Part shown: piece after piece, positions 27,296 through 33,244 of the stretch
Layout: every line of letters starts with the position of its first letter
Numbering within the stretch: position 1 is the first letter of the stretch
Assembly: GCF_000689395.1 (NCBI RefSeq)
Contig: NZ_HG966617.1
Coordinates: forward strand, 692,753 to 756,752
Length of the DNA: 64,000 bases
Source of the DNA: Candidatus Phaeomarinobacter ectocarpi
Lineage (GTDB): Bacteria > Pseudomonadota > Alphaproteobacteria > CGMCC-115125
Direction of reading: 5' to 3'
Made by a program: the position numbers and the translations under genes
The notes under the pieces: model-generated
What the model was told of the DNA's origin: nothing
Databases searched by the model: none
The model's input: the letters and a program-made list of their open reading frames with translations, nothing else

Positions 27296-28840
27296 ATGAA
27301 TGGTGCAGAGAGCCTTGTGCAGACTTTCGTCAATTGCGGCGTGGAAGTCTGCTTCTCAAATCCTGGCACATCCGAAATGCATTTCGTGGCGGCCCTCGAC
27401 AGAATTGACGGCATCCGTCCGGTGCTCGGTCTGTTTGAAGGCGTTGTGACCGGTGCAGCTGATGGCTATGGCCGCATGGCCGGAAAACCTGCAGCGACGC
27501 TTCTCCATCTTGGTGCCGGGCTCGGCAACGGTTTTGCCAATCTGCACAATGCCCGCCGCGCGGCCACGCCGATCATCAATGTTGTGGGTGAGCACGCAAC
27601 GTATCACCGTCAATATGATGCGCCGCTGGCATCTGACATCGCCAGTGTCGCACGCCCGAACTCCGTCTGGATGGAAACTCCGGAGGAGGCAACTGAAGTG
27701 GCCGCCGCTGGTGCGCGGGCCTACGCAGCATCCATGAGCGCGCCAGGCGGTATCGCCACACTTATTCTTCCCGCTGATACCGCATGGCTTGATGCCGACG
27801 GCGCAGCAGACCCGGTTGAGATTGCCGCGTATAGCGAAGTTGATGGCGCCACGATCGACAAGGTCGCCGCTGCCCTCAAGAACGGAAAGAAATCTGCAAT
27901 CCTCTTGCGCGGTCGCACGCTGCTGGCAGATGGTCTTGAACTTGCTGGACGCATTCAGGCGGCAACCGGCGCCCGTGTACTGTGTGATACTTTCACGCCC
28001 CGCATGCAGCGCGGTGCTGGTCGCGTAAAGATCGAACGCATTCCGTATTTTGCAGAACAGGCGGTCGAGCACATTGCTGAAGTCGAGCAGCTTATCCTGT
28101 GCGGTTCACAGAACCCGGTCGCCTTTTTTGCCTATCCCGGCAAGGAAAGCTGGCTGACGCCGCCCGACGCGGAAACGCTTGTTCTTGCGCGCCCGGAAGA
28201 AGACAGCCTGGCAGCTCTTGAGGCTCTGGCAGAAGCCGTTGGCGCACCAGCCCAGGCGCCTGAGCATGTCGCACTGGCAAAACCAGATCTTGGGTCCGGC
28301 ACTCTTGACGCTGACGGCGTTGGTCGTGCGATCGCCCATTTCCTTCCCGATGGTGCTGTTGTTTCAGATGAGGGGGCAACAGCCGGGCTCTTTACAAATA
28401 TCTACACCGAGACGGCAGCTCCACACGACCACATGACCCTCACCGGTGGAGCCATTGGACAGGGACTTCCGCTGGCTGCCGGTGCGGCACTGGCTTGCCC
28501 CGACCAAAAAGTCGTCTGCTTCCATGGTGACGGCGGCGCCATGTACACGCTGCAGGCCCTTTGGACCATGGCGCGAGAGAAGCTGGATGTTGTAACCGTC
28601 ATTCTGTCGAACCGCTCATACGCCATCCTCAACATTGAGCTGATGCGTGTGGGGGCTGAAAATCCCGGCCCCAAGGCGCTCTCCATGCTGGATCTTCATA
28701 ATCCGGAACTGAACTGGACCCAGCTCGCCAATGGCATGGGCGTTGAGGCCGTGCGCTGTGAGACCGCCGAGAAGTTCAATGACGCCTTCAAGTCGTCAAT
28801 GTCCCGCAAAGGGCCATTCCTGATTGAGGCCATGATCTAG
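27296..28840 (+). CDS. Thiamine-diphosphate enzyme, acetolactate synthase/benzoylformate decarboxylase-like
   Basis: A 514-residue ThDP-dependent enzyme. The N-terminal PYR domain has NPGTSEMHFVAAL and FEGVVTGAADGYGRMAGKP with the catalytic Glu, and the C-terminal PP domain has the metal/ThDP motif GDGGAMYTLQALWTMAREKL ending in NRSYAIL. A middle domain without FAD-type motifs lies between. It is annotated in relatives as a large-subunit acetolactate synthase homologue, but this is shorter than IlvB (about 570) and no IlvH regulatory subunit follows. A 2-keto-acid decarboxylase or carboligase role is more plausible. A GGGAG ribosome site precedes ATG. Confidence 0.85.
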   Translation: MNGAESLVQTFVNCGVEVCFSNPGTSEMHFVAALDRIDGIRPVLGLFEGVVTGAADGYGRMAGKPAATLLHLGAGLGNGFANLHNARRAATPIINVVGEHATYHRQYDAPLASDIASVARPNSVWMETPEEATEVAAAGARAYAASMSAPGGIATLILPADTAWLDADGAADPVEIAAYSEVDGATIDKVAAALKNGKKSAILLRGRTLLADGLELAGRIQAATGARVLCDTFTPRMQRGAGRVKIERIPYFAEQAVEHIAEVEQLILCGSQNPVAFFAYPGKESWLTPPDAETLVLARPEEDSLAALEALAEAVGAPAQAPEHVALAKPDLGSGTLDADGVGRAIAHFLPDGAVVSDEGATAGLFTNIYTETAAPHDHMTLTGGAIGQGLPLAAGAALACPDQKVVCFHGDGGAMYTLQALWTMAREKLDVVTVILSNRSYAILNIELMRVGAENPGPKALSMLDLHNPELNWTQLANGMGVEAVRCETAEKFNDAFKSSMSRKGPFLIEAMI

Positions 28841-29004
28841 CGTCAAATCCCACCACTCCGGGGCAAAGCTATGCTTTGCATCGGGTGTCTGCGCTGGATA
28901 CGGATTAACCAGCTAAGTAACTGGTGCAAAAAGCATCTTTGCTGTTACGATCTGCGGGCCGGGCAGGGGTAGCCTGGTGCGTACTCGCCTTGTTGGGGAT
29001 CGGC

Positions 29005-29053
29005 CCGGCCTTTGCATATTTGTGCATGAATGGTCCGGGCAAAGGCCGGTTTT
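29005..29053. other. Long-loop inverted repeat with T-run
   Basis: CCGGCCTTTGC (29005-29015) and GCAAAGGCCGG (29039-29049) are perfect 11-bp inverted complements separated by 23 bases, and TTTT follows. It lies 165 bases after the ThDP gene and 87 before the GspE-like gene. The loop is long for a terminator. A shorter hairpin, GCAAAGC-TAT-GCTTTGC, sits at 28863-28879, just after the ThDP stop. Either could end the ThDP transcript. The rest of the roughly 300-base gap shows nothing recognisable. Confidence 0.4.
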
Positions 29054-29139
29054 GAGACGCGCCTTGCTGCCCGGCACAAGTTTTGTGTGGCCGGTTGGAT
29101 ATCCAACACGGTGATTGCAGCAGGATTCTGGGGGCGTCG

Positions 29140-31218
29140 ATGAGCATGACCTTCGACAAGAAAAATACCGATAACTCTGAAACAGGCGGTCAGCCACCTG
29201 CTGATCAGGCCAAGCCGCGCGACGCGTCTTCGTTGAATATCCATGACCTGGGTATCGATGTGGATGTTGCCGCAGAGGAATTCGTTGAACTGGACGCACC
29301 CGACGACGTGGATCGTGGCATTGAGCGCCTGATCCGCTCGGCCGGCGTTACCCCGCCAAAACGCGCAACGCCGTCAGCAAGTGTCACGCCCATCAGCGCT
29401 GCTGGAATGTCTGAAGCAGCCATCGGGCAAGCAACGGAACAAGCCGTCTCGGCAATGCCGAGTCCAGCAATCAAGGTCACTGATCCTGAAATTGCAGAAC
29501 AGGTAGAGATCGCGGATGCCTCATCACGGATTCGCTCAAAGGCTGCTCTTGGTGACATGCAGCGCCCCATTGGCGAGCGCCTGGTAGAACTGGGTTATGT
29601 CAGCCGCACCGGTCTTGATGCTGCCATTGCTGAGCAAGAACGCAGCCCGCACAAACTGCTGGGCCGCATCCTGTCTGACCTGGATCTGTTTGAAGGCGAA
29701 CAGGAGCAGACATCTGATAGCGCAGGGCATGATCCCCTGCACACCCTTATTGACCCTGAAGCTATTCAGGTGGCTCCGCAGGACTTGATCCGCTCAGCGC
29801 AGGTGCTCCCGGTGTCCCGTGGCAATGGCGCCATCATGGTGGCGATTGCTCACCCCAAAGACATTGATCGGATCGAAGACCTGCGTCCCTACCTTCCCGC
29901 GGGCACGCGTGTTGAGCCGTGCTTTTGGCCAAAAGACGCCTTGGATGAGACGATCGAGGCCGTCCTCGACCATGAAATGTCCGCTGAAGGGATCCTCAAA
30001 GGTCTTGCACACGGCACCGAAGAACGCGGTGCGGAGGCTACCGTTTGGGCTGATCCTGCCGTGCGGCTCGTTAATGCGGCCCTGCTTGATGCCGTGCGCG
30101 CAGATGCCAGCCATGCACACTTCGAGCCGGTAGATGGCTATGTCCGTCTTCGCTACCGAGTTGACGGTGCCATGCAACAGTCATCGTCGATCGACAAGCG
30201 CTTCTGGCAGCCTATCGCCACACACATGCGCAATCTCGCAGGCCTGGATGGTGCATTGGGTCAGGAGGGTGCAGAGCTTGGTGAATTCACCATGCGTCTG
30301 GGTGATCGCTTTTTCGTCTGTTCACTCAAGACATTCGACACATTGAATGGCGAACGCATGACGATTCGCATGGGCGAGATCGCGCGTGACCCGATGTCTC
30401 TTGGTGAGATCGGACTGTCAGACCATTCATCCGCTCTGGTACTGCGCTCACTGGTTCGGCCATCGGGCATGGTGGTTGTGGCAGGTGGCCGCGCGTCTGG
30501 TCGCACAACCAGCCTCTACGGCATGCTCGGTGAAATGAAGGCGGCAGAACGCTCCATTTTCACTGTGGAGCGTCGTATCGGCTATCGCTTGCCGCTGGTA
30601 AGCCAGCTTGAAGTGACCACCCAGCAGGCAAACAACCCGCAGACGCTGATTGAGGATGTTGTTGCACAGGATCCTGATGTCCTGTTGTTCGACAAGATCG
30701 ACGGCAAAGCCGCTGCGCGTTCTTTGGCAAATGCTGCGTCAGCAGGTCGTCTGGTTCTGACCTCCATGGATGCGCCGGATTCCCTGTCGGCGTTGATCGA
30801 ACTCATCGGTATGGTCGATGACCCACGTCACCTCGCAGGACGCATAACGACAGTCATGGCGCAACGCCTTGTTCGTCGCCTTTGCTCCGTGTGCAAACAA
30901 TCACGCACGGCCAGCGCAGACGAGTGCTTCATTTTCGGACTTGATCCAACTGATCGACCAACCGTCTACCATCCCAACGGGTGCCCATCGTGCCGCTCGA
31001 CCGGCTATCGCGGGCGGACGGTGATTTCGGAAGTCCTCATCATCGATGATGAAATGAATGACCTGATCGCCGAAGGTGCAAGCATTGCTGACCTTCGCGC
31101 AACGGCAGCCGACAAGGGCTTCCAGTCATTGGCTGATGATGGCGTACGCAAGGTATTGCACGGTGAAGTCAGCCCCGGTGAACTTGCCCGCGCGGTTGAT
31201 CTGGCCGCGCGCCTGTAG
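29140..31218 (+). CDS. GspE/PilB-like ATPase homologue with substituted nucleotide motifs
   Basis: A 692-residue cytosolic protein with the layout of type II secretion or type IV pilus assembly ATPases: an acidic N-terminus, an N1E-like domain (GERLVELGYVSRTGLDAAIAE), a helical linker, the ATPase core (YVRLRYRVDGAM, LNGERMTIRMG) and a zinc domain (CSVC from Cys582, then CPSCRSTGYRGRTVISEVL). The Walker A is GGRASGRTTS, with Arg455 replacing the lysine, and the Walker B region is DPDVLLFDKIDG, with Lys519 where family members have Glu and Gly522 where they have Asp. The histidine box is also changed (SMDAPDS). No GspF or pilin gene is adjacent. ATG 29140 follows GGGGG. Probably a pseudo-ATPase or strongly altered enzyme. 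Confidence 0.75.
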   Translation: MSMTFDKKNTDNSETGGQPPADQAKPRDASSLNIHDLGIDVDVAAEEFVELDAPDDVDRGIERLIRSAGVTPPKRATPSASVTPISAAGMSEAAIGQATEQAVSAMPSPAIKVTDPEIAEQVEIADASSRIRSKAALGDMQRPIGERLVELGYVSRTGLDAAIAEQERSPHKLLGRILSDLDLFEGEQEQTSDSAGHDPLHTLIDPEAIQVAPQDLIRSAQVLPVSRGNGAIMVAIAHPKDIDRIEDLRPYLPAGTRVEPCFWPKDALDETIEAVLDHEMSAEGILKGLAHGTEERGAEATVWADPAVRLVNAALLDAVRADASHAHFEPVDGYVRLRYRVDGAMQQSSSIDKRFWQPIATHMRNLAGLDGALGQEGAELGEFTMRLGDRFFVCSLKTFDTLNGERMTIRMGEIARDPMSLGEIGLSDHSSALVLRSLVRPSGMVVVAGGRASGRTTSLYGMLGEMKAAERSIFTVERRIGYRLPLVSQLEVTTQQANNPQTLIEDVVAQDPDVLLFDKIDGKAAARSLANAASAGRLVLTSMDAPDSLSALIELIGMVDDPRHLAGRITTVMAQRLVRRLCSVCKQSRTASADECFIFGLDPTDRPTVYHPNGCPSCRSTGYRGRTVISEVLIIDDEMNDLIAEGASIADLRATAADKGFQSLADDGVRKVLHGEVSPGELARAVDLAARL

Positions 31219-31220
31219 AA

Positions 31221-31616
31221 CTAACTGCCCAGACGACCTGCCAGCTGGCGTGCTTGCTGTGCGCCTTGGCGCGCATAAGTATTCCCAAGATTTGCTGCCG
31301 CAGCAGTGCACCGGCTATGCGCAGATTGCTGTCGCGAGTAGCCGGCATTGAACGCGCCGATAAGGGCGTTGCGCGACGCCTGGTCAATGTCGTTCGACGA
31401 CAGAATATCCAGCATCTTGTTGCGCCATTGTTGACCCTCGCTGGGTCGGCAGAGTGTGCGCAGATAGTGAACCGCGCCAAGTGTTCCCGCCAGACGCGAC
31501 AAGCCGTCTTCCAGTATTGGATTCGCGCGTGCAGGATCAGCCGCCGCAACCGTCATCATCAAAGACAGGGCGATCAACACGCATTGCAAAATTCGTCTTG
31601 GACCAACATTTGTCAT
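31221..31616 (-). CDS. TIGR02301-family secreted protein
   Basis: A 131-residue exported protein. The signal peptide is clear (ILQCVLIALSLMMTVAAADPARA). The mature part contains LSRLAGTLGAVHYLRTLC, GQQWRNKMLDIL, and NALIGAFNAGYSRQQSAH with a second Cys in SRCTAAAANL, the pattern of the alphaproteobacterial conserved hypothetical family TIGR02301. Two cysteines suggest a periplasmic disulfide. It is convergent with the GspE-like gene, stop codons two bases apart. Function unknown; no operon partner. Confidence 0.75.
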   Translation of the reverse strand: MTNVGPRRILQCVLIALSLMMTVAAADPARANPILEDGLSRLAGTLGAVHYLRTLCRPSEGQQWRNKMLDILSSNDIDQASRNALIGAFNAGYSRQQSAHSRCTAAAANLGNTYARQGAQQARQLAGRLGS

Positions 31617-31693
31617 TGCAGGCGATTATGCCTCAGCGAGAAGGTCTGCCAAAGCCTGATACGCTCATCTCAAACAAATAAATGAGGTTTGCC

Positions 31694-32113
31694 ATGCCCG
31701 AGATGCTGGATTTTGTTGCCATTGATCATGTTGTCCTTCGTGTTGCGGACACGGAGCGGTCAATAGCCTTTTATGAGGGCGTACTCGGGATGCAGGTCGA
31801 GCGCCGCGTGGACATTGGCCTGGTGCAACTGCGCGCCGGGGCAAGCCTGGTAGATCTGGTCGATGTAGACAGCGAGCTTGGCCGCGCGGGCGGTGCTGCT
31901 CCAGGCTCTTCGGGCAACAACATGGATCATTTTTGCCTGGCCCTTGCGGAGTTTGACGAACAAGACATCCGCAACTGGCTCAAGGCCAATGGTGTGGAAG
32001 TTGGTGATGTTGCCCGGCGCTATGGGGCGGGAGGCTTTGGCCCCTCGCTCTACCTGTCAGATCCGGACGGCAATACGGTAGAGCTCAAGGGGCCTCCTGA
32101 TCTCAACCAGTAA
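31694..32113 (+). CDS. VOC (glyoxalase-fold) family protein
   Basis: A 139-residue single-module protein of the vicinal-oxygen-chelate superfamily. The two beta-alpha-beta-beta-beta repeats begin AIDHVVLRVADTERSIAFYE and MDHFCLALAEFDEQDIRNWL. Candidate metal ligands are His in IDHVVL, His in MDHFCL and Glu in NTVELKG. A GAGG ribosome site is six bases before ATG 31694; the ATG at 31682 lacks one. Could be a glyoxalase I-like lyase, a dioxygenase or a resistance protein; the sequence does not decide. Lone gene, divergent from the TIGR02301 gene. Confidence 0.85.
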   Translation: MPEMLDFVAIDHVVLRVADTERSIAFYEGVLGMQVERRVDIGLVQLRAGASLVDLVDVDSELGRAGGAAPGSSGNNMDHFCLALAEFDEQDIRNWLKANGVEVGDVARRYGAGGFGPSLYLSDPDGNTVELKGPPDLNQ

Positions 32114-32199
32114 GACGCGCATACTTAGAGTTTGCACCCTCCGCAAATTTAGTTAGGATAACTTACTAAGTGGGCGTGCACGCCCTGACGGGAGGAAGT

Positions 32200-32601
32200 A
32201 TGCGTAATCTGTTTACAGCCGCTTTTTTGGCCTCAGTACTGCTGGTTGGTGCGGTTTCAACACCATCAAATGCTCAGAGTTACCCTTTTCCGCTTTCTGA
32301 CATCTCCACCGAATTGGGAATGACAGAAGAGAGATTTGAGCGGTGGTGGTCTCAGGCACCGGCATCCATGAAGTCCGAATTGTCCAGCCAGCCACTGGGC
32401 AAATGGCGACCCACAGTTGTGTGTGACGTACTTGGTTTTCGCATTGGCTCCACAGAAGGCGCTGAATGCCGTGAAACCAAATACAAGGAACGTATGGCTA
32501 CAGCGGATCAATGGAACGCTGATGGATCCTACAAGGGACCGTCAGACGAATGCCTTGCCCGCAACAAGACCGACAAATGGGGTCGCCTGATCTGCGGCTA
32601 G
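32200..32601 (+). CDS. Secreted cysteine-containing protein, one-module paralogue
   Basis: An exported 133-residue protein with a signal peptide (FTAAFLASVLLVGAVSTPSNAQS). Its mature part is one module: ERFERWWSQAP, WRPTVVCDVLGFRIGST, EC, then QWNADGSYKGPSDECLAR and WGRLICG. Four cysteines are likely to form two disulfides in the periplasm. It is clearly related to the next gene, with identical ERFERWW, QWNADG and GRLIC segments. GGGAGG precedes ATG 32200 by a few bases; an earlier in-frame ATG at 32170 is less likely. No known domain is recognised. A small inverted repeat (AGTTA-GGA-TAACT, 32151-32163) lies just upstream. Confidence 0.75.
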   Translation: MRNLFTAAFLASVLLVGAVSTPSNAQSYPFPLSDISTELGMTEERFERWWSQAPASMKSELSSQPLGKWRPTVVCDVLGFRIGSTEGAECRETKYKERMATADQWNADGSYKGPSDECLARNKTDKWGRLICG

Positions 32602-32647: not shown

Positions 32648-33244
32648 ATGCGATTGCGTTTTGGTTCTCTGTCTCTTCTGGCAGCCATGATGGCGTTTGC
32701 TGCGCCTTCTGCGAGTGCGGCCGAGTATACGCCAGAGCTACGCGCGTTCATGACCACCATGAATGACGTGGAGAAGGAGCGTTTTGAGCGGTGGTGGCGG
32801 GATATGCCCAGCTATTTCAAGAGCTCCCTTCATGATGCGCCATTTGAAGAATGGCGGGCCGTTATCTATTGCGATTTTCTGGGCTTCCGCGCCGGCACGG
32901 CACAAAGCGACAAATGTGTCGAAATGCGTACCAAGAGCTGGCAGCAAAATGCCAGTCAGTGGAACGCGGACGGCACGTTCAGAGGACCATCCTCGGAGTG
33001 TCAAGCGCGCGGACGAACAGACGAGTTCGGGCGGCTCATCTGTGTCGATGAAGACCTGCGTGAGGAAGTGCAGGAATATTGGGACAGCCTGCCGCACGAC
33101 CAGAAGCTGAAAGAGTTTGCCCGCCCCGGCCACTTCTGGGAGGCCATGCAGCATTGCTATGAGGGTGAAGGCTACGCTGTTGGCAGCGAACTCTATACCC
33201 AATGCGAGCTGGCCTATGCCAACCGCAACGTACCGATCAACTAA
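32648..33244 (+). CDS. Secreted cysteine-containing protein, extended paralogue
   Basis: An exported 198-residue protein with a signal peptide (LSLLAAMMAFAAPSASAAE). The first part matches its upstream neighbour module for module: ERFERWWRDMP, WRAVIYCDFLGFRAGTA, QWNADGTFRGPSSECQAR, FGRLICVD. After that comes a second copy of the first half: VQEYWDSLP, FWEAMQHCYEGEGYAVGS and C. So the pattern Trp-x2-(M/L)-Pro ... Trp-x-(A/T) ... Cys-x3-Gly-x3-Gly ... Cys occurs three times across the two genes. It is 46 bases after the paralogue, and a strong terminator follows, so the pair is probably an operon. Function unknown; envelope or adhesin-like roles are guesses. Confidence 0.75.
   Translation: MRLRFGSLSLLAAMMAFAAPSASAAEYTPELRAFMTTMNDVEKERFERWWRDMPSYFKSSLHDAPFEEWRAVIYCDFLGFRAGTAQSDKCVEMRTKSWQQNASQWNADGTFRGPSSECQARGRTDEFGRLICVDEDLREEVQEYWDSLPHDQKLKEFARPGHFWEAMQHCYEGEGYAVGSELYTQCELAYANRNVPIN

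Follow-up and report, generated by a model that had tools for sequence, protein, structure and literature searches.

A PilB-like protein with altered catalytic motifs conserved across Candidatus Phaeomarinobacter

The best-described relatives of the protein reported here are PilB, the extension ATPase of type IVa pili (T4aP), and GspE, the ATPase of type II secretion (T2SS). According to the accessible text of PMC5424180, H420 of G. metallireducens PilB sits on the gamma-phosphate of the nucleotide, H413 and H420 lie around T411, and R271 goes with E357; R257 bridges to E357 in the open AMP-PNP interface, the T327-T411 contact of the closed interface runs backbone to backbone, and R455 spans the open, empty (apo) interface to the T411 backbone. 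In M. xanthus, PilB with the Walker A substitution K327A neither hydrolyses ATP nor supports pilus-driven motility, yet EPS production is on, and nucleotide-free (apo) PilB was proposed as the signalling form; the Walker B variant E391A did not turn on EPS (portions available of PMC5544727). An ATPase-dead PilT of V. cholerae still supports PilU-driven retraction, and the two proteins interact (PMC6821130, accessible text).

The available part of a review (PMC11656802) names no inactive PilB relatives, and a literature search at the level of titles and abstracts, with subscription literature thinly covered, returned no natural pseudo-PilB or pseudo-GspE; ComGA, considered as a further precedent from the available part of PMC4896167, was given no weight. 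The family and fold described below are known, and what appears new against these partly available sources is a pseudo-PilB that occurs naturally and is fixed throughout a genus where neither T4aP nor T2SS was found.

The protein is encoded in the window, by which we mean the whole 64,000-nucleotide stretch of the Candidatus Phaeomarinobacter ectocarpi genome that was analysed. It resembles PilB (PDB 5tsg/5tsh) in fold, domain order, the zinc tetracysteine, one arginine finger and the arginine of the apo interface, and differs from it in having lost the Walker A Lys, the catalytic Glu, the Mg-binding Glu, the HIS box and one arginine finger. It shares with GspE its family, PF00437 membership and the zinc site; unlike GspE, it has lost the catalytic residues and scores under the cut-off of TIGR02533. 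The setting differs from both, with no T4aP or T2SS genes found in the genus. The PilBs of alphaproteobacterial pilus operons (loci L055-L059; genomes G019, G005, G053, G008 and G016) fall in the same clade as the genus protein, and have canonical motifs and an adjoining pilC, whereas the genus protein has neither.

Gene, domains and genomic setting

The host genome (G000) is a single contig of 3,415,905 bp. The mechanically called open reading frame opens upstream, at TTG 29083; we took ATG 29140 as the start because the N-terminal MxMTF that it yields is conserved in all four Candidatus Phaeomarinobacter members. The gene and the N-terminal parts of its product are as follows.

29140..31218, + strand: pseudo-PilB/GspE gene, 692 aa plus stop, with PF00437 and MshEN matches; present in 4/4 genus genomes
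29140..29562, + strand: N-terminal extension, residues 1-141, mostly predicted disordered, with pLDDT below 50 over most of it
29563..29691, + strand: degraded MshEN c-di-GMP bundle, residues 142-184; Pro at the first position of motif I, no second helix in motif II
29740..29982, + strand: Pfam MshEN match, residues 201-281

Membership of the PF00437 (T2SSE) family is clear, with residues 305-682 scoring 204.3 bits against a cut-off of 24.9, and the equivalog models are missed by a wide gap: 255 bits for TIGR02538 (PilB) and 261.9 bits for TIGR02533 (GspE), below NCBIfam cut-offs of 675.65 and 630.25, respectively. The AlphaFold model has a mean pLDDT of 77.8, the ATPase domain being mostly confident and residues 1-141 mostly disordered, and the top PDB matches of the model in Foldseek are PilB/PilF structures, 5tsh and 5oiu (TM by target 0.89 and 0.93). 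The fold is that of a PilB/GspE-type secretion ATPase. The N-terminal extension contains two genus-invariant segments, LNIHDLG (residues 32-38) and GIERLIRSAG (60-69), and found no match better than E 5.7 among the relatives in our set.

An earlier note on this DNA took the N-terminal domain to be intact, and here we disagree. As described in the accessible part of PMC11731258, MshEN is a four-helix bundle in which the motif (R/K/L)LGxx(L/V/I)(L/V/I)xxG... occurs twice, 24 residues each. The genus protein is like an MshEN receptor in having a recognisable domain (35.5 bits, above the Pfam cut-off), but two complete motifs are not present: motif I opens with Pro143-Ile144-Gly145 (Pro-Ile/Leu-Gly across the genus) in place of (R/K/L)LG, and the second helix of motif II gives way, beyond residue 184, to a polar stretch that falls short of the one in L007 by 5 residues, or by 8 in species L005. 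Pro occupies the same motif I position in two canonical relatives as well, L072 and L079. In the AlphaFold model there are three helices in residues 142-184 and none until 206, with pLDDT below 50 at 188-195, and the score for the NCBIfam c-di-GMP motif, 31.2, is below the cut-off of 38. Because the motifs are altered, a helix is absent and the score falls short, ordinary c-di-GMP binding seems unlikely from sequence and model.

The gene is flanked by a thiamine-diphosphate enzyme gene and by a DUF2385 gene encoded on the opposite strand; the flanking genes in G002 are the same, and in a Pfam scan of the window the neighbouring genes give no hint of its role. Upstream, 28838-29139 contains blocks identical in three genomes, including TTAACCAGCTAAG and GGGGATCGGCCCGGC, and could possibly hold a binding site. 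A hairpin upstream of the gene was rejected, being barely better than shuffled sequences (z -0.5 in G000, z -1.1 in G001); a scan of 28700-31700 for sigma-70-type promoters gave none on the + strand and one on the - strand, against 1.1 expected by chance. Downstream, 32170-32601 and 32648-33244 encode two small proteins in tandem, each opening with what looks like a signal peptide; they have a FERWW segment in common and no Pfam match.

The earlier note had suggested that the protein partners a type II or type IV system encoded elsewhere, and proposed searching the genome for a canonical GspE and GspF. G000 has just one further PF00437 match, two T2SSF matches and one secretin, all clustered at C1:99871-106032, which gene order and sequence suggest is a Tad-type locus; corresponding PF00437, GspF and secretin matches likewise lie together in G002 and G001, and in G003 (81% complete) the secretin is a fragment below cut-off at a contig end. 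Family searches of the four genus genomes for GspF/PilC, class III pilins and the secretin of a T4aP or T2SS returned only Tad-type copies, and the N_methyl class III pilin was not found in any of the four, while 8 of 14 control genomes were positive. A search of the same four genomes, run without a positive control, found no match to the PilM/N-like protein of the G019 operon. The suggested T2SS or T4aP partner is not supported, as the family searches yielded only the Tad-type locus and, in G001 alone, a third PF00437 gene (C1:2532953-2533711, L062) beside a large open reading frame resembling a conjugation ATPase, which is perhaps part of a conjugative element. The available part of the Ca. 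P. ectocarpi genome paper holds nothing on pili, secretion systems or motility (PMC4110880).

The surroundings of related genes are quite different. A pilC match occurs in the fetched flanks of 22 of 25 non-genus clade members and 39 of all 46 other homologues, versus none of the four genus loci, and the stretch around the G019 gene contains GspF, two N_methyl pilins and a secretin. In three of the nearest pilus operons an ABC-type ATP-binding-like open reading frame lies slightly downstream of the pilus genes (L055:6612-7352, L056:5704-6420 and L057:2308-3018, all on the minus strand).

What stands of the partner suggestion is a possible link to the Tad pilus, to which nothing in particular points. 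As a regulatory or structural partner, a dead ring would bind the Tad platform proteins or the working CpaF-type ATPase, so that an inactive ring sits beside an active one. No related filament machine other than the Tad-type locus was found in the four genomes, and its CpaF P-loop is canonical in G000 and G002. The pairing of ATPase-dead PilT with PilU in V. cholerae is a precedent (PMC6821130, as available); however, PilT and PilU share one system and PilB and CpaF do not. The gene also lies about 0.62 Mb from the Tad locus on the G000 contig, and we noticed no sign of co-evolution in passing. We regard such a partnership as unlikely.

Catalytic and interface residues

Our alignment set the four genus proteins against 46 further homologues, with a single locus fetched from each genome: 26 loci from a search of 96 genomes of relatives and 20 from a search of 385 genomes of the class. 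Counts among homologues leave out weaker matches and second copies in the searched genomes, as well as L033 (identical in sequence to L005), L063 (the same gene as L006) and five further loci already in the set as genes (L064, L071, L076, L077 and L087); a structure alignment took in 39 of the 50 rows. Residue roles, taken from the accessible text of PMC5424180, were mapped onto G. metallireducens PilB through a phmmer alignment. The chain number was taken as the published number plus 20, an inferred offset under which E357, E395, R257, R271, R286, T411, H413, H420 and R455 all coincide with the expected residue. The corresponding segments of the gene are these.

30052..30384, + strand: N2 domain of the ATPase, residues 305-415, with Ser395, Glu382 and Arg410
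30478..30510, + strand: altered Walker A, residues 447-457, GGRASGRTT, Lys to Arg455
30562..30615, + strand: altered ASP box, residues 475-492, EDPVE to ERRIG, Mg-binding Glu to Gly481
30670..30717, + strand: altered Walker B, residues 511-526, GEIRD to DKIDG, catalytic Glu to Lys519
30742..30777, + strand: altered HIS box, residues 535-546, T/H/H to A535/R537/D544 (T411/H413/H420)
30874..30876, + strand: Arg579, equivalent of R455 in G. metallireducens PilB, retained
30883..30993, + strand: tetracysteine zinc site, C582 C585 C615 C618, intact in 4/4 genus proteins

Two substitutions named in the earlier note, Arg455 in GGRASGRTT and Lys519 in the Walker B region, are both present as read. The Walker A consensus GxxxxGK(T/S) is broken by Arg at position 455 in all four genus proteins, where the 46 others all have Lys, and the catalytic Glu (E395 type), present in 46/46 others, is Lys519 in 4/4. 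The third reported change, Gly522, holds for two of the four species and is not a general trait, the other two keeping the canonical Asp. Alongside it, position 518 is Asp and position 521 Asp or Glu throughout the genus (canonical Gly and Arg, respectively, in 46/46 others), and the Mg-coordinating Glu (E357 in G. metallireducens PilB) is Gly481 in 4/4 and Glu in 46/46. The HIS box has gone as well: position 544 is Asp in the genus and His in all 46 others, position 537 is Arg in the genus and His in 45 of the 46 (a single homologue is without this first HIS-box His), and position 535 is Ala in the genus where all 46 have the canonical residue.

An active PilB/GspE motor has two arginine fingers, and one of them is lost here. 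The R271-type finger is Ser395 (Ala in two genus species; Arg in 46/46 others), and the R286-type finger is kept as Arg410. At the interfaces, the R257 position is Glu382 and the T327 equivalent is Arg451. The zinc-binding tetracysteine is intact, as the earlier note had it. Its reading of the protein as a pseudo-ATPase is borne out and extended by losses that it did not list (Gly481, Ala535/Arg537/Asp544, Ser395 and Asp518), and the pseudoenzyme identity is well supported. Most of the side chains for binding the nucleotide, closing on it and sensing it are thus lost, and one contact of the empty interface remains.

The changes reach beyond the nucleotide site. Among 80 columns conserved in at least 90% of the 46 canonical proteins, the genus has preserved 48; the G000 protein departs from the consensus in 32, and 29 of these departures recur in each of the four species. 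A single canonical row departs in 9 of the 80 at most. At the nucleotide site 15 columns are changed and 16 retained, compared with 17 changed and 32 retained elsewhere, so a clustering of changes at the site, which we had considered, is not significant (Fisher p 0.25), and other surfaces were therefore remodelled too. Nine further loci from the phylum were read, and in 9/9 the Walker A, ASP-box, Walker B and HIS-box motifs are intact; one has unread letters in a cysteine pair and one has Ser at the Arg395 position in a pairwise alignment.

Such a protein might still depend on a nucleotide, either by binding one other than ATP or by hydrolysing ATP in a rewired way. The shape of the P-loop may persist, given that Gly449, Gly454, Thr456, Thr457, Glu477 and Arg410 are kept; Arg455 would stand in for Lys, and the charge swap in Walker B (Glu519 to Lys, Arg521 to Asp/Glu) has a compensated look. 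However, the Walker A Lys, the catalytic Glu, the Mg Glu, three HIS-box positions and one finger are lost together, and we consider this improbable.

Selection and descent

The gene is under strong purifying selection. For the closest pair within the genus, dN is 0.010 and dS 0.419 (dN/dS 0.025), with no nonsynonymous differences in residues 441-580, the 140-codon core that contains the altered motifs; eight neighbouring genes in the same pair range from 0.009 to 0.064, so that the pseudo-PilB value falls inside. Synonymous sites are near or at saturation in the deeper genus pairs, and the argument for selection consequently rests on the close pair and on the altered residues 455, 481, 519, 535, 537 and 544, which are invariant across the four species. 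The earlier note's view of a full-length gene under selection agrees with these values.

Closest among the sequences in the relatives search is that of G019, at 38% identity, and the nearest five (L055-L059) span 28-38%. No closer relative outside the class was present among 398 sampled genomes of the phylum, the best row outside the class scoring 330 bits versus 426 for G019 within it. In a tree of 50 ATPase regions the genus forms one branch with full support, so the Arg and Lys substitutions, which the earlier note proposed to check for clade conservation, do mark a single clade at the end of a very long stem. That stem carries 2.91 changes per column, versus 0.08 for the longest branch inside the genus, in a tree whose bootstrap had not settled and in which the placement of so long a branch is unsure. 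The proportions suggest rapid change along the stem followed by a freeze.

A decaying relic of a lost pilus would agree with the finding of no other part of such a pilus operon (the search for the G019 PilM/N-like protein having had no positive control), but decay is ruled out by the low dN/dS and the invariance of the altered catalytic positions, together with the unchanged core in the closest pair and full-length genes in 4/4 genomes, and we give this reading very little credence. A sequencing or assembly artefact hiding a normal GxxxxGK(T/S) loop has nothing in its favour and can be set aside with near certainty, as Arg455 and the other altered residues recur in four genomes whose other three proteins, all full length, are 98, 85 and 78% identical to that of G000.

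A possible role outside the motor

Our preferred reading, which we hold with some reserve, is of an exapted pseudo-motor: a PilB descendant whose ring is biased to the nucleotide-free state and acts as a scaffold or signalling platform. Most of the residues for using ATP are lost and no pilus of the PilB-driven kind was found in these genomes, so the protein probably has some other job. An alphaproteobacterial ancestor would have carried a type IV pilus like that of G019 and later lost it, and the motor gene would have survived in a second role that called for its shape and not its ATPase. The catalytic centre would have been lost along one long stem, and purifying selection would have frozen the gene thereafter. 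The protein would probably still fold as a zinc-stabilised PilB subunit and form a ring, which would sit in an apo-like state, with Arg579 bridging the empty, open interface, and serve as scaffold or signalling platform instead of motor.

Since the side chains that hold the nucleotide are mostly gone and Arg579 is kept, such a ring should be apo-like; ring formation and apo bias are predicted from interface residues, and the signalling role is proposed. The bias can be read only in part from the sequence. The closed-interface T327-T411 contact runs through the backbone, as does the R455-T411 contact on its far side, and substitutions need not abolish either; R257 of the open interface is lost too (Glu382).

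A precedent is the K327A variant of M. xanthus PilB, which cannot use ATP and acts as a signal independently of pilus assembly, and we propose by analogy that the genus protein may signal in a similar way. K327A is, however, an engineered variant in a piliated species, whereas the genus protein is natural, fixed and found with no such pilus, and it is changed at both Walker A and Walker B, unlike the single M. xanthus variants. That its c-di-GMP site is apparently broken makes a direct transfer of the M. xanthus model less convincing.

Elsewhere, G000 encodes a family 2 glycosyltransferase of 788 aa in which Pfam places an MshEN domain at the C-terminus (G000:C1:2933966-2936332; L053:1967-4333, minus strand). 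By domain order we take it to resemble NfrB, and it is a candidate c-di-GMP-controlled polysaccharide synthase. Proteins with an N-terminal MshEN-like part and, by eye, a glycosyltransferase-like part are encoded at L106:71-2086 on the minus strand (G000:C1:336570-338585), where the MshEN score is under the cut-off, and at L107:1775-3736 on the plus strand (G001). E. coli NfrB has been described as a c-di-GMP-controlled polysaccharide enzyme (PMC8669469 and PMC8669472), and this case and the MshEN glycosyltransferases in the genome do no more than suggest polysaccharide as a sensible starting point.

Taken further, the exaptation reading would have the genus fix as wild type, after loss of the pilus, a signalling or scaffold ring made from the pilus motor and always free of nucleotide, the state imitated by the Walker A mutant of M. 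xanthus PilB, a proposal that we offer tentatively and with more doubt than confidence; the ring may then control surface polysaccharide or the Tad pilus. Research on pilus and secretion motors treats them as engines. A non-motor role of PilB has so far been argued from point mutants in a piliated species (PMC5544727, as available), and a natural, conserved PilB with a dead engine, in a genus where its machine was not found, would separate the non-motor from the motor role.
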